Assembly: GCA_001557505.1 (NCBI GenBank)
Contig: LSAX01000003.1
Span: 4,030,001 to 4,094,000, forward strand
Length of the DNA stretch: 64,000 nt
Reading direction: 5' to 3'
Source of the DNA: Reticulascus tulasneorum
Lineage: Eukaryota > Ascomycota > Sordariomycetes > Glomerellales > Reticulascaceae
The translations under genes were made by a program, and so were the position numbers. Under the pieces are notes generated by a model, which worked only from the letters and a program-made list of their open reading frames with translations, had not been told where the DNA came from and did not search any database. Shown here in pieces: positions 32,368 through 49,954 of the stretch (its first letter is position 1; every line of letters begins with the position of its first letter).

Positions 32368-33231
32368 CTACCTAGACTGAGGAGTGTAATATTCTACTAC
32401 CTGCGCCGGCGGAACAGGGTCCCGCAGCGTAGCAGCCGGCGCCGTTGGTGGTGCGGCGGGGGGAGCAAAGTAACCCTGTAGTGTAGACTGGCTAGACACT
32501 TGCGGATATGCGGCGTACTGCTGGTGCGCAGTCCCCTTCGGTGGGAGGTAGATCATTGGATGCATCATGGCTGGACCAGTCAACTGCCCATTCGGCAGTA
32601 AAACAAGCGTCCTTGTAACGCTTCTTCGCTGGTGCGTTTCGACGCAGGCTCGCACGAAAAGAATGAAGTGAACCAGCAACAAAAGGCTGACGAGCGCAAA
32701 TACCACTCTACGTAGTACATAGTATACTGGTGCCGTCCCGTCATCGATGGGAACGTAATGCCATGTCGTCTCCCCGTTGTCGTACGTAGTCGAGTACCGA
32801 TAGCCTGATGTCCAACTCGAACTTGCGCCAAAGAGGAATGAGGTCAGCGCACATGCTAGCCAGATAATGAGGTGTAGTGCAACGGCAGTGCCTGGGTGGA
32901 GACCACGCTTGTCGCCGGCCGTGCAGCGAGAGATGGTGTCGGCGAGGTACCAGGATATGGTGATGCCGATTATGATAATGCAGATTGAGAATGAGGTTAC
33001 TGAAGCCTTAGCGCGGCTGAAAGTGATCAGGAGGTAGATGCTCAGAGGCAGGATGGTGATGCAGCTGAAAAGGGAGATACCTCCCAGCACGAGCTTGGCA
33101 AGGTGCCATGATCGACTGAAAGGCACTACAGGCGCGTGAGAGGGCTGATGGTGCGCGGCTAGGTCTTCCAGGTGTGATCGAGACTGTGGTGTCGGCGATG
33201 AAGGTCGTGAATGAGATCTGGTGAAAGGCAT
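32368..33231 (-). CDS. Four-span membrane protein, MARVEL-like layout
   Basis: An intronless protein of 287 aa. Four hydrophobic segments are spaced like a tetraspan/MARVEL-type protein: LVLGGISLFSCITILPLSIY, VTSFSICIIIIGITISWYLA, AVALHLIIWLACALTSFLFG and VVFALVSLLLLVHFILFVRA. The loop before the last span carries YRYSTTYDNGETTWHYVP. The N-terminus is Ser/Pro/His-rich, and the C-terminal cytosolic tail is Pro/Gln/Tyr-rich (PPAAPPTAPAATLRDPVPPA). It is probably a plasma-membrane or vesicle protein with a disordered tail. No enzymatic motif is seen. Confidence 0.65.
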   Translation of the reverse strand: MPFTRSHSRPSSPTPQSRSHLEDLAAHHQPSHAPVVPFSRSWHLAKLVLGGISLFSCITILPLSIYLLITFSRAKASVTSFSICIIIIGITISWYLADTISRCTAGDKRGLHPGTAVALHLIIWLACALTSFLFGASSSWTSGYRYSTTYDNGETTWHYVPIDDGTAPVYYVLRRVVFALVSLLLLVHFILFVRACVETHQRRSVTRTLVLLPNGQLTGPAMMHPMIYLPPKGTAHQQYAAYPQVSSQSTLQGYFAPPAAPPTAPAATLRDPVPPAQVVEYYTPQSR

Positions 33232-33576
33232 GACTGCAGCTGGAGCTTGGGCAACGACTTGGAGGGGGTTCCAAGACGAATTACCCTCACTTTAAAGAGC
33301 GACTGAGGTTGAGAAATGATGCAATGGGGGGAAACGAAAGAAACCAACGGCGAAGTTCAAGGATTGCCTTGCTGCGCCGCCAACCAGGGGTTCACGAGAT
33401 CACGTGTGGGGTGCATCATGAAATTACGGAAGCTATTTTGGGGCAAGTTAACTGGTTTGTCTGACATTATGACCCCATTCATACATTAGGTAAGCTAGTT
33501 TATGCGTGCCAAGAGATACAGTAATTTCAGCTTCTCCCAGCACCAACAACCTCACAACCCGCGAGATATCGCCTCT
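33232..33576. other. Promoter of the membrane protein gene and 3' flank of the permease gene
   Basis: No coding frame is supported apart from antisense shadows. Confidence 0.5.
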
Positions 33577-35393
33577 TCAAGCCTCTGCGTTCTTCTCCAC
33601 TCCCATTGTCGATTGTGTCTTATAATCGCTTCCTTTGTCCCCCGCACTTTGGCTTTCCACGTCTGTATCGACACCAAGGACGACAGAATCGGCTCCATGC
33701 ACAACTGCTGGGATGAGGGTCTCCTTGTCCGGGAAGAAAAAGTTGGAGAAGTAGTATAAGAAGACAGACAAGAAAAAGCCATATAGCCAGTTGAAGGAGA
33801 AGAGGTTCGTCATTCCTTGGCCAATGTGCACTGTCGACGGTGACACTCTCGCCGCTAGGCCGGGCAACATGGGAACGATGACGATGACCATGGTCATAAG
33901 GGCTCGCCAGTTGATGCCGTATTTCCCATACCTGTAGATACCGTGAGGATCATACAGAGCGGGAACGTCGTAGCGCCGGCGCTTGATGAACCAGTAGTCG
34001 GTCATTAATATGCCGGCCATCGGAGCCATGAAGATTGCGTAGGCGCTCATGAAGCTCAAGAACGCCTTTGCATTGGCAACAATGATCCAAGGGCACAAGG
34101 CCCAGCCGCCGATGAAAGCGGCGAAAATGGTTCCTCTTCGGTTGTTGAACCACTTTGGGGACAAGGTGGTGATGTCGTTGGCGAAGGAGACCGCATTCGC
34201 GCTGATGTTGACGCTCACCTGTGCTATTAACCAGATGCTGGCACAGAAGAATGCGGCAGCACGACCACCGGGCGTGTTCTGCCATGTTCCGATAATCTCA
34301 AGCGGACTCCAGTATGGCGTACCCCAAATCGACTGTGATGCTGATGCTGAGACGACACCGAATATGCCGACAATGGTCTTGAAGATGGGAATGACGGGAA
34401 GCTGCCAAAACTGGGCACGGGGGTTCTTGCTGAAGCGCGAGAAGTCGGAAATATTGACAGCCAGAGTACTGTACCCGCCTGTCACACTCGTCTATGAATC
34501 ACAGTCAGCAACATTGCATCACGAAGAGTCGGGTATCTCAGAACTTACCAAGTTTGCCAGCCAAAGCCAAGCTCGAGTGGAGCCGTGAACTGTGGCAGGC
34601 TGGTAGAAGAAGTCGCCTTGGCCACCGGCGCGAACGGTGATCCAGATTACCATGCCAAGGGCCATGGGTGGAGTGATGATCGTCTTGACCCAGAACATGT
34701 ACTGGAGCCGATGTGTGGGAATGAGGAGCAGCGGGAATTGAATCAACCAGTAGATGAAGTAGGAAATCATCCCCGAGGTGGTCAGCACCGCCGACGCTGG
34801 GAGCTGGTTTGGTAATGTTGCAAAGCTAGGCCAAATGGAAGTGATGACCTATCGGCGGATTGTGTCAATACATCTCGCGCGGGAAGAGGCACCAGAAACA
34901 AACTCACAGCTCTCACGCACGTCCCTCCTTGAGCACTCTGGACACCGAACCAGAACAGAGCGAGAATACCCCGACTGACGATGCAGAAGTAGCTGAAATA
35001 ATAACCAAAACTGGCTCGAGCAGCAATGGGGAAGGGAATGTGCAGTTCAGATCCGATTGCGCCGTTGAGGACGGTGGGGATGGCGTTGCAGATGCTGGCC
35101 ACCAGCATGATGAGGATGGCATCGGTGCATGTCAGGCCGGTTGTGATGATGGCACTGCCGGAGGTCCAGGTCGAGATGGTGACCAGGTCGGAGAACCAGT
35201 AGGTGATGAAGGCACCTTTGCCCCATGTCCGCCTTTCGGCCGGGACGGGGTCCATGTCGGCATTTGTCCACACACCGGCCGGCGCGATGCTGCTCGGCTG
35301 CTTGGGGAGTTTCCAGCTCGACGGCTGCGTCAGCCGGAGCTTGGCCTTCTCCTTGGCGGCGTGGCCGCGCTGGCGTAGAGCAATTTTCTCCAT
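33577..35393 (-). CDS. NCS1 nucleobase/allantoin-type permease (Fur-like)
   Basis: Three exons (35393-34908, 34848-34549, 34491-33577) give 566 aa; both introns are 57-59 bp with GTGAGT/GTAAGT donors and ATAG acceptors. The protein shows the nucleobase:cation symporter-1 pattern: an early WGKGAFITYWFSDLVTISTWTSGSA, then AIPTVLNGAIGSELHIPFPIAARASFG, ILALFWFGVQSAQGG, and a late NISANAVSFANDITTLSPKWFNNRRG and MAGILMTDYWFIKRRRYDVPALY. About twelve spans are expected at the plasma membrane. Characterised fungal relatives import uracil, uridine, allantoin, purines or thiamine; the exact substrate cannot be read here. It is divergent from the Zn2Cys6 regulator, and their shared promoter carries TCGGCCGA. 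It is probably the uptake step of the adjoining cluster. Confidence 0.9.
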
Positions 35394-36258
35394 GGTCGCG
35401 CAGGATGGAGGATGTATCCTAGCCAAGAATGAGAATTCAAACGGCAGTCAAGCAAATGATACTCAGAAGCAACAGATGGTGATGGATATCGCAACGAGTC
35501 TGTCGTTCATTTCCTCCTGAGAAACGAGCGATGGCGATCCTTGATATTTGAATTGAAGTGGAACCGAGTCCGGAAAGGATGGACTCCCAGAGCACGTATC
35601 GAGTCATTGTGCTCCAACCTCCTATCTTGCCTTATCTGGTGGCCATCTTAGCAAGGCAAATCTGGTCAATTGAATCTGTTGCGATAGGCCGATTGCCATA
35701 GCGATAGCTCTTGGACGGAACCTTGGTAAGCACCTGATGGACAACAACCTGTTAACCCGTCACAGCTGGCACTTCATCAACAGCTGGGGTAACCAACGGC
35801 ACTGCTGGTATTGAAATTATTATCAGCGATAGCAACCAAGGACAAATGCGTATTACAGCACTCGCCCGAGCTTCGGCCGATCACTGCAACCTATCTCATT
35901 AGATAGGGGATTTAGTGAGGTACGGTGGGTGTGCGTGGCCCTGTCCACTACAGGCGCTATTTCGTCCGATTTTCACGCTAGACAGGCGTCAATCGTTGCC
36001 GGTCCCGGCCGGCCACTGCTTGCCAGGATCCATCCCCACCACAACCCACGATCCAATCCATGGCGACTCCCTGCCCGAGCCAATTGCAGTCGGCACGATT
36101 CCAATCACTCTGTTCGCGATAAGGCACATACAGTAATTATGGATTCAATCTGCTCGGTTTCTTGTAAGGCGGCAGACAGGCAGATACGAGGATGACTTCG
36201 TCCGAGTTCCACCCTTACCATTACTCCATCTTGAGCCTCTTCCAATGCTTGTGCGGCA
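35394..36258. promoter_or_regulatory. Divergent permease/regulator promoter with TCGGCCGA and GATA motifs
   Basis: The interval between the permease and regulator starts holds TCGGCCGA at 35873-35880 (480 bp from one start, 379 bp from the other). A CTTATCT (AGATAAG on the other strand) lies at 35631-35637, with further GATA cores near 35825. The palindrome recurs in every other promoter region of the cluster. A Zn2Cys6 factor is expected to bind CGG/CCG half-sites, so the regulator encoded here may control itself and the permease. Confidence 0.6.
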
Positions 36259-38569
36259 ATGTCAGCAAATCCCGTAAATCGTGGAAGACTTGCATGTGCG
36301 TCTTGCACGCGCCGCAAAGTCAAGTGCTCAAAGACTGTTCCGTGCAATAACTGCATTCGTCGGTAGGTCGCCGATACTCAGGCCTCCAATTGCTCACACC
36401 TGCTGACACGAACACCCTCGCAGAGGCGAACAAGACTCGTGCGGCTCCGAGGCCATCGATTCAGGATCTCCGACAGCTGTGGGTGGCTCCCAATCGGTGT
36501 CGCAACGCTCTGCCTCGATTCCGCAGCACTCGAATCACCACGAACTTGACTTTCTCCGACGCAAGATTGCCGATCTCGAGGACAAGGTCCGCCAGGCGGC
36601 TTCGTCGGATACTCAGAGACATCATCCAACGCCACCCACGAACGACGCCGCATCCGAAGCTGAGTCGGGCCCAGTCGACCCGAGACTGGACGAGCCAGAA
36701 TCACCTGTAATAAACCTGCCAAGCCAACGACCGGACACGAGCGATGCCATAGTCAAAGACGCAGCATCCATACTCGAGTTCCTGGCCTGGGGTCGGCGAA
36801 AGAACCCGGACTACCAGACGGTCGTCTCGCCCGAGGCTACTCTGATCGTCAGTAGCAGCTCTGGTCACCTTCGCGATTCGCACCAGCAGGAAGAACTCCA
36901 GCACAGCTTTGGAGAGTTTTCGCAGCCTGCTGTGCTTCAATTGCTTTTGCCAAGCCCCCGACAGGTCTGGCAGCTCATCGATTATCACGAGGAGTCGTTG
37001 CTATGGTATCATGGATCATACTTTGGACCTACTTTCCGGAGCCAACTGGAGGTCTTCTACAACCGTTATAACGGAATAATCGAGAGCCGAGGTGTCAACT
37101 TGCAATGGGTTGCCCTCCTCTTCTCGGTGTTGACCGCCAGCATTGTGTGCGCACCAGCCCAGCGTGCACAGGTGTGGGGGTTCCGCGATCCCGAACGCCA
37201 ACTCCTATCGAAGCGATGGTACCAGGCCGCCATTAATTGCCTCAACCAGGCCGAATACACTGCCAACCTCAGCATATTATCTTGTCAAACAATTGCCACA
37301 CTGACAATCTCAGCACACATGCTGGGATTCTCTAACGCACAGAGTATCCATCTTGCAGCAGCTGTGAGGATCGCCCAGTCCCTGGCACTGCATCGTCTTG
37401 GGCGTGACACTGGCGGCAGCGTAGTTGAGAAGGAGACTGGCCGTCGCGTTTGGTGCCAGCTATGCAGTCAAGATTGGTTTGGCATTCCCTTCTCGGAGAG
37501 CTACCTCATAAATCCGCTGTATTCTATTTCCGAACCGCCTGCGAACTGTGATGACCAGGATATGATCCCGCAACCGGAGGACAAACCCACGAGCACAAGC
37601 TATTGTCGCTTTCTTCGTGAGATCGCTTCTATCATGCCTCATTTGCAGGATGGTTTGATGACATGCAATACTGCATACACTCGATACGAACAAGTTCTGA
37701 CTTGGGACGCAAACTTACGCGCACTTGCCACCACCGGCCGCCCGATCTTCTTATCGAATGTTCCTATAGAACCAGAGTGGCCCTCTTATATTCCCTGGGC
37801 GCGTCGTGCTCTGGCGATCAGCTCTAGTCATAAAATCATAATGATTCATCGTTCATTCCTCTCCGAAAGCTTCACGAACCCAGCTTTTGCCTTCACACGG
37901 CGGACTTGTATAGCGGCATCCAAAACCATCATCAAGGAATACAAGGCTGTGGTCGAGGAAGATGGCCCAATTCTATGGATCCACCAAGCTTTCTCAGTCG
38001 CGGCATCCATCATTCTGATACTGGATGTCTTGCATCGAGGGCCGGGCGAACTGGAGACTGAGGAGCACCGGCATCTGGCAGAAGATGTCCTGGAAATCCT
38101 ACGACAATGTCGCAACAGTATGATTGCGGCGCGAGGCGTAAAGCTTCTTGGAGCTATGCTTGCTGAGGTGGCTCGAGCAGCGAACAGCGAAACATCGTCC
38201 AACCATGGACAGAAAAGGTCACAAGAGGACGCAGGATTTTTGGGTGATGGGCCAAATCGCACGGCGAAGAGACCTAAGGGCTTCGATGTGCCTCACTTTG
38301 TGAAGACTTTTTGTGAAGGCAACGGGGCTACTACTCAACAAATGGCCCCCGGCCCATCCCGCGCCACAGCTGCTGTTGACGTTCTCGGAAGAGCTGCTCA
38401 GGAGCCCGCGGCCTTCCAGTACGACACCAGCGGTGCACAGGACGTCGATTTGTTCCCCCTTGGCCAACCTGAGCTCAACTTCGCATTTCCGTCAGGAAGC
38501 TTAGAAGGGACTAATGGCTTTGAGAATCTTCTTTATTTGGCAAACAACGATTGTTTCTCGATATTTTAG
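36259..38569 (+). CDS. Zn2Cys6 transcription factor, likely cluster regulator
   Basis: A short first exon (36259-36362) and a 61-bp intron (GTAGGT donor, GCTGACAC branch site, GCAG acceptor) precede the main exon 36424-38569; total 749 aa. Exon 1 encodes the binuclear zinc cluster: CASCTRRKVKC then CNNCIRRGEQDSC across the splice, six cysteines in the standard spacing. A short linker leads to a coiled coil (LDFLRRKIADLEDKVRQ), typical of dimeric factors. The fungal-type middle homology region spans roughly residues 200-500 (AAVRIAQSLALHRLG; KETGRRVWCQLCSQDW). The C-terminus is low complexity and may activate transcription. The gene is divergent from the NCS1 permease and lies beside the dioxygenase genes, so it is probably their pathway-specific regulator. 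Confidence 0.9.
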
Positions 38570-38761
38570 TTATCGAGGAGGCACCTAGCACTTCATATGG
38601 AGTGGATTAGGTCCTCTGTGTAAGTATTAGTTATGAAGTCACGAAAGTAATGTAGCGATTCTCTCTAGCACATCGATACTGCTGGATTTCTGATTATCTT
38701 CTTTCTGGCTTTGAAATGAGGTGCACGTACATATAGTTTATCATCTTGACACCAGAAAATA

Positions 38762-39604
38762 CTAAATCTTTTCAAACAGAACGCCAATTGCCCGCTTCAC
38801 TCCTTCAAGATCCTCCAGGATCGGCTGATGTCCGCTTTTGACTACCTCCATCCAACTTTCACCTCCGACTAATCCACTCAGATCCTTAGATCTATCAACT
38901 GGGCTGATCATGTCCTTGTCTCCCGCGATGAAGACTACCGGAGCCTTGATCCGGCTATACTCGGGGTCCACATGAGTCAAATCAACCACTGCCTCACATG
39001 TCTGGGCATATGCCTCTGGGTCTGATGCAGCGACTGCGTCCCACACAGCCTGGCGAGCGATAGCATCGACATGTCGCTTTTCAGTGTCCTCGTAGAAATT
39101 AGTTTTGGTGGCTAGGTCTGCCGCGAACCCAATACCCTTTTGCCTCACAACTGCGGCGAGGCCAAGCATGCGTTGTCTGGCTGCCGGGATGTGTCCCGCT
39201 GCACGTCCGGAACCGAGCAATGCGAGCCCCGCGATGGCTTCGGGATGTTGCGCGGCGTATTGTAAGGCGACGATGGCTCCGAGGGAGTGGCCGATGAGGA
39301 TGATACCGCTCTGCGGTGAAGTAGGAGCTGCTTGCAGAGATGCGACGAGATCGTGTAAGTCGGTGACATGGCCGGCGATGGAGTATTGTTTGGATGACTC
39401 GAGACGTGGTGTTTCGCCGAAGCCTGGGAAGTCGACTAGGACTACGTTGAAATCCTGTGGGAAGAATGGTATGAGAGGAGTGAACGTTTCTGTCGAGCCA
39501 CCAAGGCCGTGGAGACAAAAAACTAGTCTTCCAGAGGGATTGCCTGTTTGGAGAAAATGTGTTTGCGTCCCGGATGAGGTTGTAAAGGTTCTTTGGGCTG
39601 ACAT
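38762..39604 (-). CDS. Alpha/beta-hydrolase
   Basis: An intronless protein of 280 aa with a complete alpha/beta-hydrolase fold. The oxyanion segment is LVFCLHGLGGS (residues 28-38), the nucleophile elbow is GHSLGA, the acid is expected in FIAGDKDMISP, and the final His is in KSGHQPILED. The size and motifs are close to 3-oxoadipate enol-lactonase-type and ester hydrolases; the substrate is unknown. No signal peptide is present, so it is intracellular. It is divergent from the first XanA-like gene, and a TCGGCCGA palindrome sits about midway between their starts. Within the cluster it could hydrolyse a lactone, ester or amide formed after oxidation. Confidence 0.88.
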   Translation of the reverse strand: MSAQRTFTTSSGTQTHFLQTGNPSGRLVFCLHGLGGSTETFTPLIPFFPQDFNVVLVDFPGFGETPRLESSKQYSIAGHVTDLHDLVASLQAAPTSPQSGIILIGHSLGAIVALQYAAQHPEAIAGLALLGSGRAAGHIPAARQRMLGLAAVVRQKGIGFAADLATKTNFYEDTEKRHVDAIARQAVWDAVAASDPEAYAQTCEAVVDLTHVDPEYSRIKAPVVFIAGDKDMISPVDRSKDLSGLVGGESWMEVVKSGHQPILEDLEGVKRAIGVLFEKI

Positions 39605-39825
39605 CGTGGTGGTAAATGGCTTTTCTGCGATTATAACGACAACAACAGATCAATCATATCAATGTAGAGATAACTTGAGGTACAGTTGAGTATGGACAAT
39701 ATTCATACAGCTTTTCACAGGATTGGATGGCACTAGCCTCGCGACTTTCTCGTCTCGCGATTCAGATACTGCGGCCGAGGGACGAGATACAGAACAAGCC
39801 CACCAGTCCCAGGTGCCAATTTGGC

Positions 39826-39833
39826 TCGGCCGA
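39826..39833. promoter_or_regulatory. TCGGCCGA palindrome in the hydrolase/XanA-like promoter
   Basis: It sits within GCTCGGCCGAGC, a perfect 12-bp palindrome, 222 bp from the hydrolase start and 229 bp from the dioxygenase start. A related half-palindrome CGGCCGAG lies at 39772-39779, and GATAAA is nearby at about 39947. Confidence 0.6.
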
Positions 39834-40061
39834 GCTCCGCTTTTGATGTCTAGTGGTGGGGATGCTCGCCCGATCATCCTACTAGTGGATTTCGGTATCG
39901 AAGTTGAACCAAGTCTCGGCCTCGCACAGGCTGACTCGAGTATGGATAAAGTTGGAATGATAATCGGACTCGACTTCTACATATCTGCCAACGTGAACTA
40001 GACACTCTTTTGCATTCTTGCCTTGCCGCCATTTTGAAATATCCAGCTCATTTTCTTCACA

Positions 40062-41465
40062 ATGGTCATTTCATCTGTTGTTACGGAAGAGGAGACAGCT
40101 CTCTACCTGTCTACCAAGAAGATCCAATTCAACCTTCCGCATGCGCAGTCATCAACTGGAAAAATAGTGCCAATTGAGCATGGACCCACGAGCAAAGTAG
40201 ACTTTGGTGCATTGGTCTACGGGATTGACTTGAACAACTTCACCGATGCAGACTTCGACTTCATATCAGATGCACTCCATACCCACAAGCTTCTTGTCTT
40301 CAAGGAGCAACCGCAGATGCTGAAGCCACAACAGCAGTATAAGTTGACTTCTAGGTACGAAAGTCATACTTGCACTGGGGAATTGGGAATTAAGGCTGAC
40401 GTGACTTGCAGCTTCGACCCTGACGAGACGACTGGCGGGTTTGCTCATGGCGCCGACCCGCTACTAACTCAGCACAACGGTCTGAAGATTTATGGTCTCC
40501 CGAAACGCCCAGCAATTCCTGTCCAGCCACAAGTACACATTTTAGGACGTGGCCCCTTACCAGAGGATCACTTCGGGTTTCCTCCGGATTTCGAAGTTCA
40601 GGGAATCAACCACGAAGAATTTCACCTGCCACCCCATATTTCGAACGAGGACCGCGAAGCTGGTGCTTCCCGCTTCTACCAATGGCACTTTGATGCTGCC
40701 TTGTACGCCATTCCACCGCCGCGTGTTGGTTGCTTATTAGCTGTACGGACGCCCAAGGGTCCGGATGTTACTGTGCGCTGGGACGATGGGACTGGCACAG
40801 AAATGAAAATAGCACCAGGCGCAACTGCCACAGTGGCAGGCAGCCGGGCTCTGGCTTTGCTCGATGATGAGACCAGAGATATAGTCATGAATAGCCGCAT
40901 CGAATACGCGCCGCACGCATTTGCATGGATGGTAGGAGCCCATAGCACTCGACTGGGACATCTACTTGAGACGGAAGGGCTTGAGAAGCCGCTGGACCAG
41001 CTGCCCAAGTGGAATAAAGAGGAAGTCTGCATTTACCCCATGGTTTGGACGAATCCCAAAACGGGGGAGAAGTCACTGCAAGTGCATGGGCAAGGAGCAT
41101 ACAAGCTCTATCTCAAAAGCAGTCCCGATGGCGAGGAAACGATTGTGGATGATTTGCAAGAAGTGAGGGCTTTCATGCATGGGTAAGTGGTACTTACTCC
41201 CTTTCTCGACAGGATGATGGCTAACTCGGATGCAGACTTATGCGTCCGGTATTGGAACCTGAGAACATATACGCCCATCGTCATGAAGAGCAGGATGTAA
41301 TCCTGTGGTACAACAGGGCACTATGGCATAGCATTGTGAGTGACGGTATGCCTAGCAGCTGGGGCCTCTCGCTAACTTGATTATCAGACTGAGTTCCCCA
41401 AGTCGTATGGCCCGAGGGTGATGCATCAATGTAATGTGGCAGCTAGTGATCATCCGACGGGATGA
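40062..41465 (+). CDS. XanA-like Fe(II)/2-oxoglutarate dioxygenase, copy 1
   Basis: Four exons (40062-40354, 40412-41182, 41236-41335, 41388-41465) encode 413 aa, with introns of 53-57 bp and matching phases. The protein belongs to the TauD/TfdA-type dioxygenases and resembles the fungal xanthine dioxygenase group. The iron-binding H-x-D is in FYQWHFDAALY, the distal His in NRALWHSI, and the 2-oxoglutarate Arg in GPRVMHQCNVAASD. Typical middle segments are VRWDDGTGTEMKIAPGAT, EYAPHAFAWMVGAHS and YPMVWTNPKTGEKSLQVHG. XanA oxidises xanthine to urate using 2-oxoglutarate; that this copy uses xanthine is inferred from resemblance only. The last two exons carry essential residues, so the long second-exon frame alone would be an inactive fragment. 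Confidence 0.85.
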
Positions 41466-42316
41466 GTGGCATCAAAATGGGCGCGCAATAGTTGATTAAC
41501 AACGTAGATTGCAGTGTTGAGGATGAAATGGAAGCAGAACCTTGGTCTAATCATCCCTTGTTTGAGCATGAGCACGAAAATCTGGAATGAATGTAATCCC
41601 GAGATAGTGAACAATGATCAATCCCACAATTACAAGATAAAGTACGCGTTAACGAACGAGAAAGTAATTCTTGAAACCAGATCCAATTCATCCGTGAGCA
41701 ATGCCGCTAGGATCCATCCCTGCTGCTTAATTCGATCCAGTATTCGCCCTGTGATGGTGTGTTAAACGAGAGAGGTTCTGCCAGGATGACCTGATTAGCT
41801 CGAGAATCTGCTCGCTGCAGTCCAAATCCATGCTTGATCATTGAAATAAAACTGACTTACGTATTACGCTGGCCAGTTTTCCCCCCGTCCAAGCCATTGC
41901 TCCGAATGGTTGGTTAGTGGGGATTGTCCCTATCAATCGATAGGCGGCCGAGATTGCTGTCTCACCTCGGCCGAGGCGTGCTTCTTGATAGGCACCCTTT
42001 CCCCCCATCCAATAGCAGGTTAGATGTTAGTACTCAACACCAATGAGAAACAACATTCCTATCAAAAGATCGCACAGGAAACTTCTGACTCGCGAGTGGC
42101 GAAGCGCGATCAAACATATCGGTTGGTCACTGCCCTAGAATCTTGTCTCGGCCTCGCTTCCAAAGTTTGTCACGAAGCTTTCACACTCTGTTGTTGACAA
42201 GAACATAAAACCGTGCTTTCAAGATCATCAATTACCTCAAACTCAAACCATTTCATTCATCACAGAAGCAGCAAGATACCCTTATACTCGGCTTATTATC
42301 AATCTCAATTACCAAC
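41466..42316. promoter_or_regulatory. Promoter region of the second dioxygenase type, with TCGGCCGA and GATA pair
   Basis: CCTCGGCCGAGG (41965-41976) is a perfect palindrome 343 bp before the start at 42317. A half-palindrome CGGCCGAG is at 41945-41952. CCTATC and GATAGG arms at 41929-41944 form an inverted GATA pair, and another GATA lies near 41985. The left part is the 3' flank of the XanA-like gene. No coding frame is supported. Confidence 0.6.
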
Positions 42317-43422
42317 ATGGCGGAACAGACCAAATACGCAGAGAGACCAATCCCTCAAGTAAGAGGGATGCCTAATGTAACTTGACACCCAGAACGTCCA
42401 CTAACAAGTAACAGATCTCTCTTCGGGACTTTGATTCTCGCATAGAGGAGATTACGGAACAGCTGTGCGATGCCGCCGAGAAAGTCGGCTTCTTCGCCAT
42501 CAAAGATCATGGCCTCACCGAATCCGAAGTACAAGACATGTTCAACGTTTCCGAATCTTTTTTCCAGCTTCCCGACGAAGTGAAAGCAACCGTACCTTGG
42601 AGCCCCCAGAACGTTGGGTGGGAGAAGATGTCCCAAATCAGACCCTCTACTGGCGCCGCGGATACCAAGGAGTCCTACCAGCTGCAATTTGGCGAAAACA
42701 TGAACGGTCTTTGGATGGGTGACGACCAGCTTCCCAGCTTCAAGGACAACAGCCTTTCATTCATGCACCGCGTGCAAAAGGTATCAGAGAAGCTTATGCT
42801 GTGCTTCGCACGCGGGTTGGGATTCGCAGACGACTACTTCAAGAACTACCATGACGTCACGCAGCCCAACTCCCAATCCGTCCTCAGACTGCTGCACTAC
42901 TTTGAGACCCCCAAGACAAACGACGGCAAGATATACCACCGCGCTGGTGCGCATGCAGATTGGGGTTTCCTTACACTTCTCTTTCAGCGCGAAGGCCAGT
43001 CAGGCCTGGAAATCTGCCCTGGACGGGAAGTTGTTACGGAGTTCGCCCTAGGCGATACCTGGACGAAAGTGGAATTTGAGCCTGGCGTGATCATCTGCAA
43101 TATTGGTGATCTCCTCATGAGCTGGAGCGACGACCGCTTCAAGTCCACATTCCACCGCGTCAAGGCGCCATCGGAGCCCGGGGACTACTACGGAGAAAGA
43201 TACAGCATCGCGTTTTTCAACCAACCACGCAAGGATTCTTTGATTCAGGGACCAAAAAAGAAGTACCCCCTTGTGACTGGCGAGGAGTTCAACGCCAGGG
43301 CCATGGCGACACAGTTTACGGCTTTGCAGGCGAAGTTGAAGGTGCAGGCGGAGGATGAAGATAATCAACCGACCAAGATTGGAGGACAAGGATCAGCGGC
43401 AACGGTAACAGCAGCAGCTTAG
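42317..43422 (+). CDS. Isopenicillin-N-synthase-like Fe(II)/2-oxoglutarate dioxygenase
   Basis: A 14-codon first exon (42317-42358), a 56-bp intron (GTAAGA donor, ACAG acceptor) and a main exon 42415-43422 give 349 aa. The DIOX_N part includes CDAAEKVGFFAIKDHGL and FFQLPDEVKA. The catalytic core has HADWGFLTLLFQ (His and Asp ligands), STFHRVKAP (second His) and RYSIAFF (2-oxoglutarate Arg). The superfamily includes thymine 7-hydroxylase, gibberellin and flavonoid oxidases and IPNS. Its place between two XanA-like genes and beside a nucleobase permease makes a nucleobase-like substrate plausible, but this is inference. No signal peptide is present. The promoter carries the shared palindrome. 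Confidence 0.88.
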
Positions 43423-43955
43423 GGTTGTATGTGTGGAATCTACGTACGCAAAAGCCATTTCAAATGTAAACAAGCAAGAATTAGTCTATACAATTTTTTC
43501 TTAAGAGCTATTGTGTGTAGGACACGGGGTTATTGTATCCGTTGTATAGAACCGTCGTGTTAGGCCTACTGTGTTCTACAAAAGCAGAAACGACGAAAGA
43601 AAACGCCTGAAAATTTATATGAATACACTTTTCCTAAGTAATTTTGTGCCAGTTCAAGTTCGGTGCACCATGTCACGAATATCGACCAAGTGCTCTCTCA
43701 ACAGAGTGTCTTTGTGAAGGACTGCTCAGAGGGCTGAAACTGATATAAATTGTCATTTGAAGAACTTCTGAAGCCATTCTGCTCAAACTTAAACATCTCT
43801 GTTTCTCAGTGTGACTAACTATCCTAAGCTGTTGGGCATCTGCAAGATATGATTCGTGAACTTTCATTGCTTTTGATATGAGCTATACGCAGCCTACTTC
43901 TAGTGAAGATAAAGAATCAGGTTATCTCCCAACTCTAATCCCAACCTGTTTCTCC
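43423..43955. other. Intergenic, no gene seen
   Basis: Convergent 3' flanks. No supported frame. Confidence 0.5.
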
Positions 43956-44708
43956 TCATGCAGCCGCGCAAGTGCTCCCTGACCTGGTACATCCCTCAGG
44001 ACACGGCGCATTTGGATCATATTGCCAGTTGAAAAATGGATCCGTCTCATTGGCCAAGACCGACCCAACGAGTCTCGTCGGCAATGGCAGGTCAAACGAC
44101 TGGGAGAAGACATCAATCGATGCGATCCGAATCTGTCCCCAGCCCTTTTCGATGAGCGTTTCGATGCTGGTCCCGTACACATACTCCTTGAACCCCGCCC
44201 ACCGAATAGCGGCTGCACACATTGGGCAGCTTTCAGCATTGGTGTAGAGCGTGAAGTCTGCAAATGCCGCCAATGCCGCACTCGGTGTCATGTTGTAGGA
44301 TCCCATTGGATCAGTGAGGACAGCGGAGCAATTGGAAATGGCTGCGATCTCGCCTGATATTTGTTAGTATTTCCACCATGAAATGAATCGTGTCGGCATA
44401 CCGTGGAGAGTAGGATTTCCAGTCGCTCTATTGCTGTTTGCACCTATGCAAACTAGTTCACCAAGTCCACCCCCAGTATGGTTGACGATGACCGTTCCGA
44501 AGGCCCCAAAGGCACAAGGACTTAGCAGCGCCAAGTTTGCTTGGCGCATCCAGTATGCTCTTGTGGTAAAGTTGATGCCGTTGATGCTCAGGGACTGGTC
44601 CCCAATCGGGACCTGCTCACCTCGTCGCTCGATTGCATGATGTCGATGGCCAAGGATGCCAGTGGCCATACAGGCTGCTAAGAGCACAAACAACGCGCGT
44701 GGAGACAT
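43956..44708 (-). CDS. Secreted cytidine/deoxycytidylate-type (nucleoside or nucleobase) deaminase
   Basis: Two exons (44708-44402 and 44353-43956) joined across a 48-bp intron encode 234 aa. The signal peptide is MSPRALFVLLAACMATGILG, unusual for a family that is mostly intracellular. The zinc site of the CMP/dCMP/guanine deaminase superfamily is complete: HGE at residues 102-104 (the splice falls inside the Gly codon) and C-x2-C at 145-148 in ESCPMCAAAIRWAG. A preceding LLSPCAFGAFGTVIVNHTGG matches the first strands of the fold. It would deaminate an amino-purine or pyrimidine outside the cell or in the vacuole, feeding the permease; the substrate is not determinable. It is divergent from the second XanA-like gene, and their promoter holds two TCGGCCGA sites. 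Confidence 0.82.
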
Positions 44709-45464
44709 CTTGATTCCAGGAATAGTAGCTGCTTGATGAAGAATGCAATGTTTTGCAGAGATGGACTGTTTGTTCCCTCGTCAAAAGCTACGTTTTATTC
44801 AGTATCCTATGTGGATTTCCTTTCATCAGCCCAAAGCAACTTGTCATGGTAACAGACTTCGAGCTACCCAGCCACCTGCGTAATCGGTATTCTGTTTGCG
44901 GTGACGTCGAGATAACACAAAAAAGACTATCGTGGTCGGGATGTCGGGATGGCGGGGTCGTGGAAATCCGACACCCCCGCGGCCAGGAACGCGACAAAGT
45001 TCATCCTCCCAGCTCGTTCCAGCTGGAAAATCAATCCTCGACTTCGGCCGAGCCCCATGGCCCCCTCGCAGGGGAGTTGGTAGATTGCAGATAAGGACAC
45101 CAACCGCGCCTCGGCCGAGATACGCTACCCGCGAAGCCACCCAACAATTTTAGGGCCGTGACCTCTGGATCGATAGCAACTCGTGACGCGCGTGCAAAAG
45201 AATACCCAGAGCACCAATGATGCCGAGAAGACAGAGTGGGCCGGACTGTGGCATTCAGTCCAGTCCGGTTAGCCGTAACAACCAAGAATCCATACTGTCA
45301 TTGCCGAGAAGCGACCGGCCAGGACCAGATATATCGATACCCTTGGCTGAAGCTACCAGTATTTCCAGACGCGTAGACCAAGACCATTGCAACAATTCCT
45401 TCTTATTTCTTGTTGCATATTCCACAACTGCTCATCTCGAAGTACTAGTTACCCCGACACCATC
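44709..45464. promoter_or_regulatory. Divergent deaminase/XanA-like promoter with two TCGGCCGA sites
   Basis: TCGGCCGA occurs at 45044-45051 and 45111-45118, with GATAAG between them at 45090-45095. The sites are 336 and 403 bp from the deaminase start and 414 and 347 bp from the dioxygenase start. The arrangement (two Zn2Cys6-type sites flanking a GATA site) suggests joint pathway-specific and nitrogen control. Confidence 0.62.
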
Positions 45465-46789
45465 ATGTCGCCGAGCACAATCACCCCAGACCCGAGCTTC
45501 ACGCTCGCCCCTATGGAAAAGACTCCGAAGGAGAAACATAACTTCGGAGCTGTCATCACCGACCTTGATTTGAACAACATCAGCGGTATGAACATCCGAA
45601 GACTTGCAAGTTCCCGTTTGGGTACACATAACTGACAAACTCACTTTTAGATGTGGATGTACAGGCTCTCTCTGATGCCATCTGGACACACAAGCTTGTC
45701 GTTGTCAAGGGCCAGAAAGATCTTGAGCCAATCAAACAATGGGAGCTCGTGACTCGGTTCGATCCGAAAGCGCCACTGGTACACTCACACGGTGATGTAA
45801 AAACATTCAACGAGAAAGGTGGAGTTCTGTCCGTAAGTTTCCCTCCCTTTCCTGAGAATGAAAGACAACTTAGGCGATTGAGTCGGATATTAAGACCCAC
45901 ACAGAAAGGGCGCGAGATCATGGGAGTCCCAGGGGCTGAGAATGTGAGGATAATTGGCAAAGGATTTCAAGGCGAGAACCACTACGGGCTTCTCAACAAG
46001 ACTTTGACCAGGGCGCCGTACCACGAGTTCCATGATCTACCGTTGTCGGAGGATGAGTACAAAGCTGGTCATACCCGTTTCCAGCGGTGGCACATTGACG
46101 CCCCCTTGTACGCGCGAGACCCTGCGTGGTTCACAACGCTGCGATGCATCAAGCGTCCGACGAGCCCCGAGATCACTATCCATTGGGATGATGGAACAGG
46201 CCAGACAAAAACATCCGAACCAGGACTCACAGCATTCTTCAGCAGTGTCCAGACTTACGACCTCATGACAGATGAAGAGAAAACACTAGCAGATCACTCT
46301 TGGGTCGAGTATGCCCCGTACCCATACCTTTGGATGGGCAATTGCAAGGGCAATGCCAACGGCCTCGGCTTGGTTGACCAGGGCAAAGAACTCAGCCTTG
46401 AGAATCTCGGCCCTTATGAAGAAAAGGACGTCAAGCGGTATCCCATGGTATGGGTCAATCCAGTTACTGAAGAGAAGGCATTCATGGTTCACGGAATATG
46501 TGTTCGCAAGATGTTCCTGCGATCATCCGTCGACGAAGAGCCAAGGATTGTGGACGATGTGGTCGAAATCCGCAAGTGGCTGAAGGTTATCCAGGAGCGC
46601 GTGTTGAAGCCGGAGTATGTTATGGTGCCTAAGTTGGGCGAAGGCGATATCGTTATGTGGGCGAACCATCAGATGTTCCACTCCGCAGTAGACTATCATG
46701 AGTCACTGGGCGTAAGGACTATGCATCAAGCGAACATTGGGGCGAGCTCTGGCCCAGTCGGGCCAGTGCCCATTCCCGTGGCTGCTTAG
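45465..46789 (+). CDS. XanA-like Fe(II)/2-oxoglutarate dioxygenase, copy 2
   Basis: Three exons (45465-45585, 45651-45832, 45905-46789) encode 395 aa. The second intron (72 bp, GTAAGT to ACAG) is free of stops and in frame; removing it brings GGVLS next to KGREIMGVPG, which fits the family better. The iron-binding H-x-D is in FQRWHIDAPLY, the distal His in NHQMFHSAVDYHE, and the Arg in GVRTMHQANIGASS. Shared signatures with copy 1 include IHWDDGTGQTKTSEPG, EYAPYPYLWMGN and YPMVWVNPVTEEKAFMVHG. The substrate pocket segments differ clearly (for example PLYARDPAWFTTLRC versus ALYAIPPPRVGCLLA), so the two may use different substrates or act in sequence. Cytosolic, no signal peptide. Confidence 0.86.
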
Positions 46790-46914
46790 GGAGCGGACCG
46801 CGTTCCAACCTTTCGCAAGTTTTGTAACCTTTTTATAGCAAGGTTTTGTAATTATCTTTCAAATATTCAGTTGCTGTCCAGCCAAATGTTGGGCCGTAAT
46901 TCCTATGCGGACTT

Positions 46915-47490
46915 TCAAGAGTCAAAGTGACTAGAGACATGATGTGCAACGGCCGCCTCGTCGCCTTCGAATGCGCCACAGACAGGACAAGTCACTGTGG
47001 CAGGTGTTGCAGAGAGTTCGTTGAGATCGGAGGCAGGCTCTCCAGGCTCGGAGTCCTGATCGGCTGGGGCGCTTCGTTGTCCCTTCACACCCTTTCTCTT
47101 TAGATGCCGTGCCGGTTTAATGTAGGCATCCAACCCCAGACTCCGTACCGCTGGTCCCTCTTGATCCTCGTGGCCGCCTACTAGTCGCGACGAACCGACG
47201 CGATCAGCGGAAGATGGATCAGTGTCAGCGAAGAGAGGTGGCATGCTTGCTCGGCTTTGAGAATTGTCGACTTCAGTTGATGCTTCACTCGCCATACCTT
47301 GCACCCTTCCTATCCTTCCGTCCGTAAGGCGCACCTTGATGCCTCGGTGATGGTCACCACGAGTCAGAATATCGCGTACGGTTCCACGGACAGTGCGCCC
47401 AGTCGGCTGATCGACCTTGAGAACAATGTCGACTCGGGCTCCTACCACTACATCCCTTGTGGAAGGGACTCGTGAAGATGAGGAGGCCAT
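46915..47490 (-). CDS. YwbE-domain protein with C-terminal zinc finger
   Basis: An intronless protein of 191 aa. Residues 14-62 (VGARVDIVLKVDQPTGRTVR, then GIKVRLTDGRIGRVQG) match the small beta-barrel YwbE family (DUF2196) known from bacteria and fungi. After a Ser/Asp/Glu-rich linker with a basic patch (KPARHLKRKGVKGQR), the C-terminus has a C-x2-C-x(13)-H-x3-H finger (VTCPVCGAFEGDEAAV and HHVSSHF). This resembles UBZ-type ubiquitin-binding fingers. The combination suggests a nuclear or nucleic-acid-linked role, but the function is unknown. Confidence 0.75.
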   Translation of the reverse strand: MASSSSRVPSTRDVVVGARVDIVLKVDQPTGRTVRGTVRDILTRGDHHRGIKVRLTDGRIGRVQGMASEASTEVDNSQSRASMPPLFADTDPSSADRVGSSRLVGGHEDQEGPAVRSLGLDAYIKPARHLKRKGVKGQRSAPADQDSEPGEPASDLNELSATPATVTCPVCGAFEGDEAAVAHHVSSHFDS

Positions 47491-48121
47491 TACCGGTGAT
47501 GGCGAGCCTCTAAAGACGCTTGCAACTCATTTATCAGTGATGATGTGTTGAGTCGCTCGTGAATGACGATGCAAGAAAAATTGGTGGGGCGGAAACCCTT
47601 AGGAAGATTAGCGCGAATTTTTATATCACATACCGTACAATTGTGGACGGGCGGCCACCGTCCGGCAAGCAGCGGTATCATTCTAGGGTGCGCATCCCCT
47701 TCTCTTCCAATCCAGACTCCGGTACATATTCGGAATCGGAGCCAATTCAATGGCATATGCTCAAGCCCCTAGCTCGGCATTGCTGGCCGAGTTATCTGGC
47801 CCATATGCGGTTGGGTTCCTGTTAGATCATTGCCTTTTTATGCTACATGGAAACCCCCTTTACACGCCGAACGCCGAGTTTAAACGATAATATTGGGTTG
47901 AGAACAATACAGCATCCGACTGATAAGAAGGATAGCGCTGTCAGAACGTCGAATCACTTCATAGGAGAACTAGGGGGCGAGGCTGCTCATTGCGCCTGTA
48001 TGATTACCTGGCGCAAATATCATTGATCAAACTCGACAATGCCGATAAGGACTAGGAGAAGCAGAATTCCATTAGGTTGGCATAATTTAAGTTAAAATCT
48101 ATGTGGTCTATCCTTCTTTCT
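47491..48121. other. Intergenic, no gene seen
   Basis: Promoter of the YwbE-domain gene and 3' flank of the alcohol dehydrogenase gene. Confidence 0.5.
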
Positions 48122-49315
48122 CTAAACTGCCAAGACGTACTTGTATTTCGCCTTGCCATTGTACTGATCGATGACAACCTGGTTGGCATCGGCCATCTTA
48201 CGCTCCTGGATTATAGGACGGATACCTTTGGTAGCAGCGAACTCAAACATCTCTTCCACTTCCTTGTAAGTACCCCAGAAGCTCCCCTCGACCTTCAACA
48301 TGCCCGCGCAGAGCGTATACGTGCTGATATCGCGGAGCGAGTCGATCGTGGCGCCTACCGTTACAAATGACCCATTGAGCTTGAGAAGACCCAGTAGCTC
48401 TCTCATAGGCATATCTGCGGAGTCGGATGTCGAAATGATAATGTCGAGGGAAGACGCATTCTTGACTGCCCAGTCCTCGTCCTCCGCCATGGCGATGAAC
48501 TCGTCGGCCCCAAGCTCATTGATCGCATCGTCCTTCTTCGAACTACTTCGAGAGATGGCCACAACTTTGTCACAACCCAAAGCTTTTGCCCAGATCAGAG
48601 CGAAATGGCCGATTCCACCAATTCCCAGAATACCAACGCTCTTCCCCGGCCCTGCGCCATGCCTTTTAAGAGGAGCCCAGGAAGTTATTCCCGCGCACAG
48701 CATTGGAGCAGCATCTGCAGCAACATTAGTTCCTTTTGATCCAGCGAGGGGGGAGAAACCGAAACCCGGCTTAAACCTACTCTCAGAAGAAACTCCATCC
48801 GGGATCTTCATGACGATGTTCATATGCGCTCGATGCACCTTCGCAAATCCACCGTGAAGGATGCTTTTCCCATCTTTCCACTTTCCGTTGGCACTCTGCA
48901 CGAATTTCGGGCATCTCTGAGGGAATCCTCTTCCGCATGCAGCGCAGTCAGATTCAAGACAGGCATAACCTTGCGGGCCAACGCCAACACGATCGCCGAA
49001 CTTGAAGGCGGTCACTTTGCTGCCGACTCTTATGACGGTTCCAATTATTTCATGGCCGATACAGCACGGGTAGGTTGTGGAGCCCTGTTCACCGTTAAAT
49101 CTGCTCTGCATACTGCCAATCTGGGTGGGTGAACTTACATATGCATTTATGAGGGCGTGGGTGTCGGTTCCACAGATCGAGCAGTGCGTCACCTCGATAT
49201 CGACATCAGTATCTTCCGCAGGTCTCAGCGGTAGATCCTGCCACACAAGCTTGCCGATAGAATCCTTGTCGAGGGCGACCCAACCTTGGGTGGATGTGAG
49301 GGGTGCTGTCGCCAT
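48122..49315 (-). CDS. Zinc-type alcohol dehydrogenase, cinnamyl-alcohol/NADP-dependent group
   Basis: The whole span is open (397 codons), but two in-frame, stop-free introns are likely: 49138-49085 (GTAAGT to ACAG, 54 bp) and 48780-48715 (GTAGGT, ACTAAT branch site, GCAG; 66 bp). Removing them gives 357 aa and brings conserved blocks together (THALINAY next to GSTTYPCCIGHE). Catalytic zinc ligands are in CSICGTDTH and GHEIIG. The structural zinc cysteines are in CLESDCAACGRGFPQRC. The Rossmann motif is GILGIGGIGHFAL, with SRSSSKK after the second strand consistent with NADP preference. It reduces aldehydes or oxidises alcohols; fungal relatives act on aromatic and branched aldehydes. Cytosolic. 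Confidence 0.9.
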   Translation of the reverse strand: MATAPLTSTQGWVALDKDSIGKLVWQDLPLRPAEDTDVDIEVTHCSICGTDTHALINAYVSSPTQIGSMQSRFNGEQGSTTYPCCIGHEIIGTVIRVGSKVTAFKFGDRVGVGPQGYACLESDCAACGRGFPQRCPKFVQSANGKWKDGKSILHGGFAKVHRAHMNIVMKIPDGVSSESRFKPGFGFSPLAGSKGTNVAADAAPMLCAGITSWAPLKRHGAGPGKSVGILGIGGIGHFALIWAKALGCDKVVAISRSSSKKDDAINELGADEFIAMAEDEDWAVKNASSLDIIISTSDSADMPMRELLGLLKLNGSFVTVGATIDSLRDISTYTLCAGMLKVEGSFWGTYKEVEEMFEFAATKGIRPIIQERKMADANQVVIDQYNGKAKYKYVLAV

Positions 49316-49954
49316 TGGAGGTGGATACGAAATCGAGGGCTAAAGTCTAAAATATGGTATGGAAATATCGTTTTGTGGATTGAATGTCTTGCTCGATAGG
49401 ATTGCGTTGAAGAAGCCAGGTCAATTAATTGTGATGCGCTCGAATTCCTTTATAGATGTTTCGCAACTCATTGCATTCATCGCCAGTGCCTGCTAATAGA
49501 TAGACGACGGACTTTAGGGGCGGTGTTAATTGATACGGCCATCTTGATGCTCGGAAGCTCACGAACAGGGCTTCGCCAAACCAAGAATTGAGCAAGGGTG
49601 GATTCCCGAGTCGTTTCAAATGTGCCTGTCGGCTTACCAAGTTACATAGCAATAGGAAATAATGCCGTTATTGCTAGGTAAAGCGTGTAGAGTCCAATGA
49701 AAAACGCTTGCCAGCCGGACCCGGAGATGGCTTTATTGGCGATAACCCTGGTGGTCGCTGCCTGTAAATCCGGGCCCAAGCCCATAGGGCGATCTAGCTC
49801 CGGCTTTCTTCCTTGCTTCCGTCCCTACAATCAATTCACTTGCATCAATCCCGAGGCTCATCATGGCGTACCTTTAATATGACAGGGTATCTCGAGATTT
49901 AATCTACCGGGAACTAATTTTGTACATTCTTTGATTTGACCGCACTTCCGCTCG
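49316..49954. other. Intergenic, no gene seen
   Basis: Promoter of the dehydrogenase gene and 3' flank of the next gene. Nothing coding is supported. Confidence 0.5.

Follow-up and report, generated by a model that had tools for sequence, protein, structure and literature searches.

A candidate gene cluster for uptake and oxidation of a nucleobase-like N-heterocycle in Reticulascus tulasneorum

Two families of 2-oxoglutarate-dependent dioxygenases and one catabolic gene cluster provide the closest described comparisons for the locus reported here. A 2014 review presents XanA as a fungal novelty with paralogues of differing, unknown specificity, and states that in Amorphotheca resinae the conserved substrate residues are missing from three of four XanA paralogues (PMC5611559). 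The second family is represented by the thymine-7-hydroxylase of Neurospora crassa (5c3p; PMC4787775). At the level of gene organization, the hxn nicotinate cluster of Aspergillus nidulans, as described in three papers (PMC5746545, PMC9304392, PMC8478523), resembles our locus as a fungal nitrogen-catabolic assembly with a specific regulator, transport functions and a thymine-hydroxylase-like enzyme (HxnY). However, HxnR is a Cys2/His2 factor and HxnP and HxnZ are MFS proteins (PMC5746545), whereas our locus carries a Zn2Cys6 factor, an NCS1 permease, two TauD enzymes and a hydrolase. Membership of hxn was rejected, given that HxnR, HxnS and MFS transporters are missing from the domains of the seven cluster genes. 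Among the NCS1/Fur transporters, the family to which our permease belongs, FurE is described as an importer of uric acid, allantoin and uracil (PMC10788122). Although XanA paralogues are already known, the new observation is that two paralogue families share a conserved cluster that also holds a third dioxygenase. Searches of an open-licence library listed no paper on a cluster of two XanA paralogues and a thymine-hydroxylase-like enzyme.

We analysed a window of 64,000 nucleotides (64 kb), in which positions 33577-46789, from the NCS1 stop codon to the last TAUD2 base, hold seven intact genes. An earlier note on this DNA had proposed seven neighbouring genes, and this was borne out: all seven predicted models, with splice sites chosen from GT-AG boundaries, open frame and homologue lengths, splice to uninterrupted proteins, and Pfam agrees for each.

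33577-35393, minus strand: NCS1 permease gene, 566 aa; exons 33577-34491, 34549-34848 and 34908-35393; PF02133 in both large exons
36259-38569, plus strand: Zn2Cys6 transcription factor, 749 aa; exons 36259-36362 and 36424-38569; PF00172, 26.9 bits (cut-off 21)
38762-39604, minus strand: alpha/beta-hydrolase, 280 aa; intronless; PF00561, 92 bits
40062-41465, plus strand: TAUD1, XanA-like TauD dioxygenase, 413 aa; exons 40062-40354, 40412-41182, 41236-41335 and 41388-41465; PF02668, 88.5 bits
42317-43422, plus strand: DIOX, thymine-hydroxylase-like dioxygenase, 349 aa; exons 42317-42358 and 42415-43422; PF14226 and PF03171
43956-44708, minus strand: deaminase with a hydrophobic N-terminus, 234 aa; exons 43956-44353 and 44402-44708; PF00383, 44 bits (cut-off 25)
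45465-46789, plus strand: TAUD2, XanA-like TauD dioxygenase, 395 aa; exons 45465-45585, 45651-45832 and 45905-46789; PF02668, 80 bits

A 28.5-kb contig (C5) matches window positions 40299-55345 (99.65%, 5 mismatches, 32 gaps) and, in the opposite orientation, 40390-53893 (99.65%, 2 mismatches, 44 gaps). We did not accept it as another copy of the cluster in the genome, since two matches in opposite orientations look like a fold-back assembly artefact, and its matches were therefore left out of the paralogue count.

A synteny check, run for three of the seven genes (TAUD1, TAUD2 and DIOX), revealed that their linkage is conserved in other fungi. Homologue lists comprised the best 120 of 189 (TAUD1), 239 (TAUD2) and 3140 (DIOX) matches, and each contig size compared belongs to the longest contig in a 90% protein cluster, so that equal size is an indirect sign of linkage. 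Among the matches listed, the contigs of TAUD1 and TAUD2 have the same length in 19 of the 22 assemblies present in both lists (0.84 expected), and for 9 of the 10 tagged pairs the two locus tags differ by one to four. Tags of homologues in named relatives include ACHAQA_009560 to 009562 (Verticillium albo-atrum), RB595_004914 to 004915 (Gaeumannomyces hyphopodioides) and LTR84_006694 to 006696 (Exophiala bonariae). DIOX shares an equal-length contig with TAUD1 or TAUD2 in 13 of 24 assemblies among the matches listed and sits on a different contig in the other 11. The TAUD1-TAUD2 linkage extends across three fungal classes, and linkage of DIOX with one or both across two. Judged from common contigs and adjacent locus tags in several classes, the dioxygenase core is therefore an old cluster.

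Some cases were set apart from these counts. Alternaria alternata, Aureobasidium subglaciale, Clonostachys rosea and Zasmidium cellare were left out on account of different strains or assemblies or pooled contigs, as were Talaromyces pinophilus (TAUD1 with TAUD2), Penicillium atrosanguineum and Paraphoma chrysanthemicola. Also outside the counts are metagenome rows with equal-sized contigs of 164486 (TAUD1 and DIOX), 108940 and 33478 (both TAUD1 and TAUD2). The DIOX tree contains 13 linked rows, including metagenome 164486. Penicillium lividum, the twelfth of the 24 assemblies in which DIOX lies apart, is weak proof of DIOX clustering, given that DIOX lies 476 locus tags from its TauD partner despite the equal-length contig, and it was placed among the unlinked rows; Saccharata proteae is likewise weak proof, with its DIOX in the other half of the tree.

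We think it likely that the locus serves nitrogen scavenging as a catabolic cluster, in which a nucleobase-like N-heterocycle is taken up and then oxidized in several 2-oxoglutarate-dependent steps; we infer both the substrate class and the order of steps. The gene-cluster observation of the earlier note stands, and its interpretation as a shared route of uptake, oxidation and deamination is supported in part: the shared promoter motif, the conserved linkage of the dioxygenase genes, pockets whose residues suit free nucleobase-like substrates and the NCS1 permease agree with it, whereas deamination as a shared step is not supported.

The two enzymes are XanA-like, as had been claimed, and both are of TauD type, but neither is likely to be the orthodox XanA. 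The best homologues among the matches listed are 83% (TAUD1) and 78% (TAUD2) identical over full length. For the pocket comparison we used what we take to be the XanA substrate positions (99, 101, 356, 357 and 358), residue 122, and His149 and His340, and after rows shorter than 370 aa were dropped, 66 of 120 TAUD1 and 115 of 120 TAUD2 rows were kept. Both enzymes retain the Fe ligands. The TAUD1 family (best 120 of 189) has Q99, Q101, Q356, C357 and N358 in 52 of the 54 rows ungapped there, with Q or K at residue 122 in 63 of 66. By comparison, three of the five positions are altered in the TAUD2 family (best 120 of 239), which reads A, N, Q, A, N in 100 of 113 ungapped rows; the XanA residue set occurs in none of these 113. 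Elsewhere in the genome, 0.64 Mb from the cluster and alone beside a GINS-complex gene, a candidate (C12:4714037) has a His149-His340 spacing of exactly 191 and keeps the XanA residues except for Arg at 122. This locus is likely the orthodox XanA, and TAUD1 (40% identity to it) and TAUD2 (36%) its clustered paralogues. Since it fits XanA better, the 'xanthine dioxygenase' titles of database homologues were set aside as evidence of function.

These comparisons bear on an accessory xanthine or methylxanthine route, which we consider unlikely. TAUD1 would then add an inducible xanthine-type dioxygenase to the orthodox one, and N-methylated or otherwise substituted xanthines would fall to TAUD2 and DIOX. 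The five substrate residues kept across the TAUD1 family are consistent with this proposal. However, elsewhere the genome holds the fuller, separate XanA match as well as a locus each for uricase and for an XDH-family protein, and TAUD1 differs from that match in overall identity, at residue 122 and by five residues in its His-His spacing (196). The Amorphotheca precedent also argues against this route.

DIOX finds its best solved relative in thymine dioxygenase 5c3p (E 4e-28). Across DIOX and all 120 homologues (best 120 of 3140), His214, Asp216, His271, Arg190, Tyr194, Arg286, Ser288 and Phe292 are identical and the base contact Asn87 is kept, whereas Glu122 and Asn294 are both replaced by Gln and Tyr217 by Trp. 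The Fe, 2-oxoglutarate and ring-stacking positions thus match those of the Neurospora enzyme, which differs at the three substituted positions (PMC4787775), and DIOX retains the aromatic sandwich with fixed substitutions. The departures at Glu122 and Asn294 could also be accommodated by pyridine-type catabolism or detoxification, in which a functional cousin of hxn would handle a nicotinate-like or other plant pyridine; DIOX would then take the part of HxnY, and the hydrolase would attack a ring-opened amide. Like DIOX, HxnY comes closest to thymine-7-hydroxylase, and its authors leave its role in the nicotinate cluster open (PMC9304392). We nonetheless regard this pyridine route as improbable. 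Relative to the hxn list in PMC8478523, HxnS, HxnX, HxnV, HxnM and HxnN types are absent from the seven genes; the permease is of NCS1 type, in contrast to the MFS products of hxnP and hxnZ (PMC5746545); and TAUD1 keeps the pocket letters of a purine enzyme.

The permease assignment of the earlier note holds, with TIGR00800 at 355 bits (curated cut-off 353.1) and PF02133, in two exons, above their cut-offs. Its nearest solved relative is the hydantoin permease Mhp1 (E 1e-14), and W117, Q121 and N318, which we take to be positions with a role in Mhp1, are conserved. The alpha/beta-hydrolase weakly resembles the enol-lactonase PcaD (104 bits; cut-off 256). The nearest solved relative of the deaminase is guanine deaminase 1wkq (E 3e-7), and the protein carries HGE where HAE is usual. 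A hydrophobic stretch at residues 5-16 gives it a signal-like N-terminus, which suggests that the protein leaves the cell and agrees with the prediction of a secreted deaminase. Its proposed part as a common pathway step is not supported, given this export-like N-terminus and the lack of space for a deaminase gene between DIOX and TAUD2 in relatives with consecutive locus tags. The deaminase is probably outside the conserved core and most likely a local addition to the cluster.

Joint regulation is suggested by the four promoter regions (2929 bp), whose notable elements are as follows.

35394-36258, unstranded: NCS1/Zn2Cys6 intergenic region with nine HGATAR sites (GATA-factor type; motif count against shuffles)
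35873-35880, unstranded: TCGGCCGA palindrome, NCS1/Zn2Cys6 divergent promoter
39825-39834, unstranded: CTCGGCCGAG palindrome, hydrolase/TAUD1 divergent promoter
41966-41975, unstranded: CTCGGCCGAG palindrome, DIOX promoter
45044-45051, unstranded: TCGGCCGA palindrome, deaminase/TAUD2 divergent promoter
45110-45119, unstranded: CTCGGCCGAG palindrome, deaminase/TAUD2 divergent promoter

The claim that all four regions share a motif, made in the earlier note with no sequence given for it, was confirmed. On either strand, TCGGCCGA is the sole 8-mer common to them (positions 35873, 39826, 41967, 45044 and 45111), and none of 100 dinucleotide-preserving shuffles produced any common 8-mer. Outside these regions it occurs once in the window (8679), and because 17 other loci of the same genome, 170 kb in all, hold three copies, 0.05 copies are expected against the five observed. 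The 10-mer CTCGGCCGAG is present in three of the four regions with 0.008 expected, a value that follows from its 118 places in the 42.8-Mb genome (four of them on a duplicate contig); its control, the reversed pattern, has 57. For HGATAR, the nine sites compare with 2.4 expected, and none of 300 shuffles reached nine, with the GATA-site excess limited to two of the four promoters. Control through UaY-type sites (TCGG-N6-CCGA) was set aside, as these are absent from all four regions.

Fungal metabolite clusters often contain 2-oxoglutarate dioxygenases and Zn2Cys6 factors, and the presence of both here might point to a biosynthetic or modifying cluster, with oxygenases that act on a small secreted metabolite and not in the breakdown of a nutrient. 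This seems very unlikely, given that no synthase or synthetase was found among the seven genes and the four flanking genes scanned, and that the uptake-type permease and the GATA sites suggest nutrition. A chance neighbourhood of common catabolic genes with no joint pathway is hardly credible, for even though TauD, NCS1 and thymine-hydroxylase-like genes are numerous in the genome and the linkage comparison covers three of the seven genes, the conserved linkage and the motif common to four promoter regions speak against it.

For the scavenging cluster that we favour, the NCS1 permease would bring the free base into the cell, where three Fe(II)/2-oxoglutarate dioxygenases could add hydroxyl groups, either one after another or at alternative positions. 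DIOX would grip the ring between two aromatic residues in the fashion of thymine-7-hydroxylase, TAUD1 would work with a XanA-type pocket and TAUD2 with an altered one, and an intermediate further along the route, either ring-opened or acyl, may be cut by the alpha/beta-hydrolase. Joint switching of the four promoters may come from binding of the Zn2Cys6 protein to the TCGGCCGA palindromes, possibly with nitrogen control by a GATA factor on top. More tentatively, the dioxygenase core, found in filamentous fungi of several classes, might constitute an undescribed pathway in which a modified nucleobase (such as a plant N- or C-alkylated oxopurine or pyrimidine) is hydroxylated or dealkylated in up to three 2-oxoglutarate steps without molybdenum or flavin enzymes.

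The changed pocket positions can now be assigned to each XanA paralogue family, TAUD1 or TAUD2, and the review's open remark on paralogue specificity becomes testable with three enzymes, one regulator and one base panel. Should a plant base or modified nucleobase prove to be the substrate, the cluster would bear on the nitrogen supply of plant-associated fungi and on new hydroxylation catalysts. In favour of the scavenging reading, a similar pairing of genes recurs elsewhere in this genome: at three of the 16 other NCS1 loci a thymine-hydroxylase-like gene is no more than 2.5 kb away, and one in 100,000 random placements gave three.

Seven spliced, intact genes occupy positions 33577-46789 of the window (C12:4030001-4094000 in a genome of 42.8 Mb and 35 contigs), and their domains match the names given to them in the earlier note: an NCS1 permease, a Zn2Cys6 factor, an alpha/beta-hydrolase, a XanA-like TauD dioxygenase (TAUD1), a thymine-hydroxylase-like dioxygenase (DIOX), a deaminase and a second XanA-like dioxygenase (TAUD2). 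The genes have a promoter motif in common, the linkage of the three dioxygenases is conserved in other fungi, and the dioxygenase pockets are both conserved and distinct. We propose that the permease would import a substrate that the dioxygenases would hydroxylate, either one after another or on different forms of the same substrate, with a hydrolysis step by the alpha/beta-hydrolase and control by the Zn2Cys6 factor together with a GATA factor. Among the matches listed in the TAUD1, DIOX and TAUD2 protein searches, the best are from filamentous ascomycetes. The cluster has the following neighbours.

30560-31828, copper amine oxidase frame, left of the cluster and two genes away
32368-33291, protein without a Pfam match, left of the cluster
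46915-47526, DUF2196 protein, right of the cluster
48122-49339, zinc alcohol dehydrogenase, right of the cluster

The copper amine oxidase is a further nitrogen-releasing enzyme, and the palindrome TCGGCCGA is absent nearby. Contig C5 (28527 bases; loci L009-L011) consists of two inverted copies of window sequence (40299-55345), 99.65% identical and broken by numerous small gaps; it is probably a fold-back read remaining in the assembly, and it doubles matches in genome-wide counts.

Linkage in relatives was inferred from the protein lists by the same assembly, contigs equal in length and serial locus-tag numbers. Among the matches listed, 22 assemblies hold both TAUD1 and TAUD2, and the two contigs are equal in length in 19 of these, where random placement in a genome assumed to be 40 Mb would give 0.84; two more assemblies have close tags. 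Nine of the ten tagged pairs listed have tags that differ by 1 to 4, and the tenth, whose TAUD1 lies on a 3 kb contig, is uninformative. Sordariomycetes, Dothideomycetes and Eurotiomycetes are among the species with close tags.

Locus tags of linked dioxygenase genes
Verticillium albo-atrum, TAUD1/TAUD2, 9560/9562
Magnaporthiopsis poae, TAUD1/TAUD2, 7268/7266
Fusarium DS 682, TAUD1/TAUD2, 6270/6272 (contig of 8952 bases)
Meristemomyces frigidus, TAUD1/TAUD2, 8291/8289
Exophiala bonariae, TAUD1/TAUD2, 6696/6694
Recurvomyces mirabilis, TAUD1/TAUD2, 4780/4778
Kalmusia, TAUD1/TAUD2, 10569/10568
Pyrenophora teres, TAUD1/TAUD2, 8088/8087
Neoarthrinium moseri, TAUD1/TAUD2, 12339/12335
Gaeumannomyces hyphopodioides (Sordariomycete), DIOX adjoining TAUD1, 4914/4915
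Ascochyta clinopodiicola (Dothideomycete), DIOX adjoining TAUD2, 9328/9329
Meristemomyces frigidus (different assembly), DIOX adjoining TAUD2, 6677/6678
Pestalotiopsis fici, DIOX four tags from TAUD2

The simplest reading of these tags is that TAUD1-DIOX-TAUD2 as consecutive genes would be the common order, with tags for all three genes seen in no single assembly. Microdochium trichocladiopsis has two TAUD1-like proteins (P0063 and P0086) and a TAUD2 homologue (P0272) on contigs equal in length (2949242), and TAUD1 has perhaps been duplicated locally there.

The deaminase, which the earlier note had made a member of the pathway, is best dropped from this core. In the window it sits between DIOX and TAUD2, which have consecutive tags in Ascochyta and M. 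frigidus; it is an addition relative to those genomes if the tags skip no gene. Its sole tie to the conserved core is the promoter in common with TAUD2, and it might supply the pathway from outside.

The linkage of DIOX is less simple, since among the matches listed it is on a contig of different length in 11 of 24 assemblies. Nine of these 11 are Aspergillus, Talaromyces or Penicillium, and in P. lividum DIOX is 476 tags distant. In a quick tree, 12 of 13 linked sequences fall in a 58-member group with the window gene (SH-aLRT 96) and 10 of 12 unlinked sequences in the other half, the exceptions being Saccharata, Xylariales AK1849 and Niveomyces, so this split accounts for most unlinked cases. 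The same genome carries a second DIOX of the window-gene kind (62-70% identity) on C15, among RNA-helicase, HIT and Med5 genes and outside any such cluster.

The cluster is distinct from the usual route of purine breakdown. A single uricase locus is on C35, and a single XDH-family (MoCoBD) locus is on C12 near 1.04 Mb. A third XanA-like gene lies off-cluster at C12:4714037, about 0.64 Mb from TAUD2 and beside a GINS-complex (Psf3) gene (4532-5575 within locus L034, C12:4709500-4719499). In XanA numbering, which we take to be that of the A. nidulans work, its protein has Q99, Q101, E137, D138, D151, Q356, C357 and N358, a His149-to-His340 spacing of exactly 191 residues, and Arg at position 122, which is presumably Lys in XanA. 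Judged by these residues, it is likely the orthodox XanA of this fungus. TAUD1 and TAUD2 are 40% and 36% identical to it, and both have a spacing of 196.

Pocket residues were counted in homologues of at least 370 aa, 66 of the best 120 of 189 for TAUD1 and 115 of the best 120 of 239 for TAUD2. In the TAUD1 family, Q99 and Q101 are each retained in 65 of 66, and Q356, C357 and N358 in 54, 56 and 54, where shortened models leave 10-11 gaps; the complete XanA set at these five positions is present in 52 of 54 ungapped homologues. The TAUD2 family instead has A (105), N (112), Q (115), A (113) and N (114), exactly this set in 100 of 113 ungapped homologues and the XanA set in 0/113. The acidic pair 137/138 varies in both families, and the alignment there is uncertain. 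Of the four XanA paralogues in Amorphotheca resinae, three are without the conserved substrate residues, as a 2014 review (PMC5611559) reports. A TAUD1 homologue of that species (P0043; 74% identity) keeps the five positions, and its residues 137 and 122 are Ala and Gln; therefore, on the stricter criterion of the review, TAUD1 proteins differ from XanA as well.

DIOX was set against a thymine-7-hydroxylase structure paper (PMC4787775). It retains Asn87, Arg190, Phe292 and the ligands of Fe and 2-oxoglutarate; Tyr217 is replaced by Trp, and Glu122 and Asn294 by Gln, in all of the best 120 of 3140 homologues. In the NCS1 permease, W117, Q121 and N318 of Mhp1, which we take to be functional positions, are conserved. 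These pockets and permease residues fit free, flat, nucleobase-like substrates and name no substrate. The nucleobase-type substrate class of the earlier note is probable.

Fungal nitrogen-catabolic clusters such as hxn (PMC5746545 and PMC9304392) and XanA paralogues with different specificity (PMC5611559) are already known. No conserved cluster that joins a thymine-hydroxylase-like enzyme to two families of XanA paralogues was found in an open-licence library with few subscription journals.

The promoter motif of the earlier note is borne out. Three divergent gene pairs plus DIOX give the cluster four upstream regions, which together measure 2929 bp. TCGGCCGA is the sole 8-mer present in all four; 0 of 100 shuffles gave any such 8-mer. 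Five copies are observed against 0.05 expected from four copies in the remaining window and 170 kb of 17 other loci, which are not a random genome sample because they were picked for NCS1, XanA or DIOX relatives. Three of the regions also contain the 10-mer CTCGGCCGAG, which occurs at 118 sites across the genome (four on C5), so 0.008 copies are expected in the 2929 bp. Zn2Cys6 proteins can bind spacerless CGG/CCG inverted pairs, the form that TCGGCCGA takes, and the cluster's own Zn2Cys6 protein may bind it. The NCS1/Zn2Cys6 region (9 versus 2.4 expected; equalled or exceeded in 0/300 shuffles) and the DIOX promoter (7 versus 2.6; 2/300) are enriched in HGATAR sites, and the hydrolase/TAUD1 (2 versus 1.7; 147/300) and deaminase/TAUD2 (4 versus 2.0; 39/300) regions are not.

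Exon matches, when grouped, give at least 17 NCS1 loci (38 matches) and, outside C5, at least 13 DIOX-like loci (21 matches). Of the 16 other NCS1 loci, three have one of the 12 other DIOX-like genes no more than 2.5 kb away, a result attained in 1 of 100,000 random placements, and 13 have no DIOX-like neighbour.

C34:545500-555499 (L030), fungal transcription-factor domain, Asp/Glu/hydantoin racemase, NCS1, thymine-hydroxylase-like dioxygenase and adjoining MFS gene
C1:2666500-2676499 (L032), NCS1 adjoining thymine-hydroxylase-like dioxygenase, with fungal transcription-factor domain and MFS gene
C2:4404500-4414499 (L031), NCS1 adjoining thymine-hydroxylase-like dioxygenase

This pairing suggests a recurring theme in the genome, in which a base imported by NCS1 is then oxidised by a 2-oxoglutarate-dependent enzyme. 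The C34 locus is possibly another small cluster, and the C2 permease, at 38-48% identity, is closer to the window NCS1 than any other paralogue compared.
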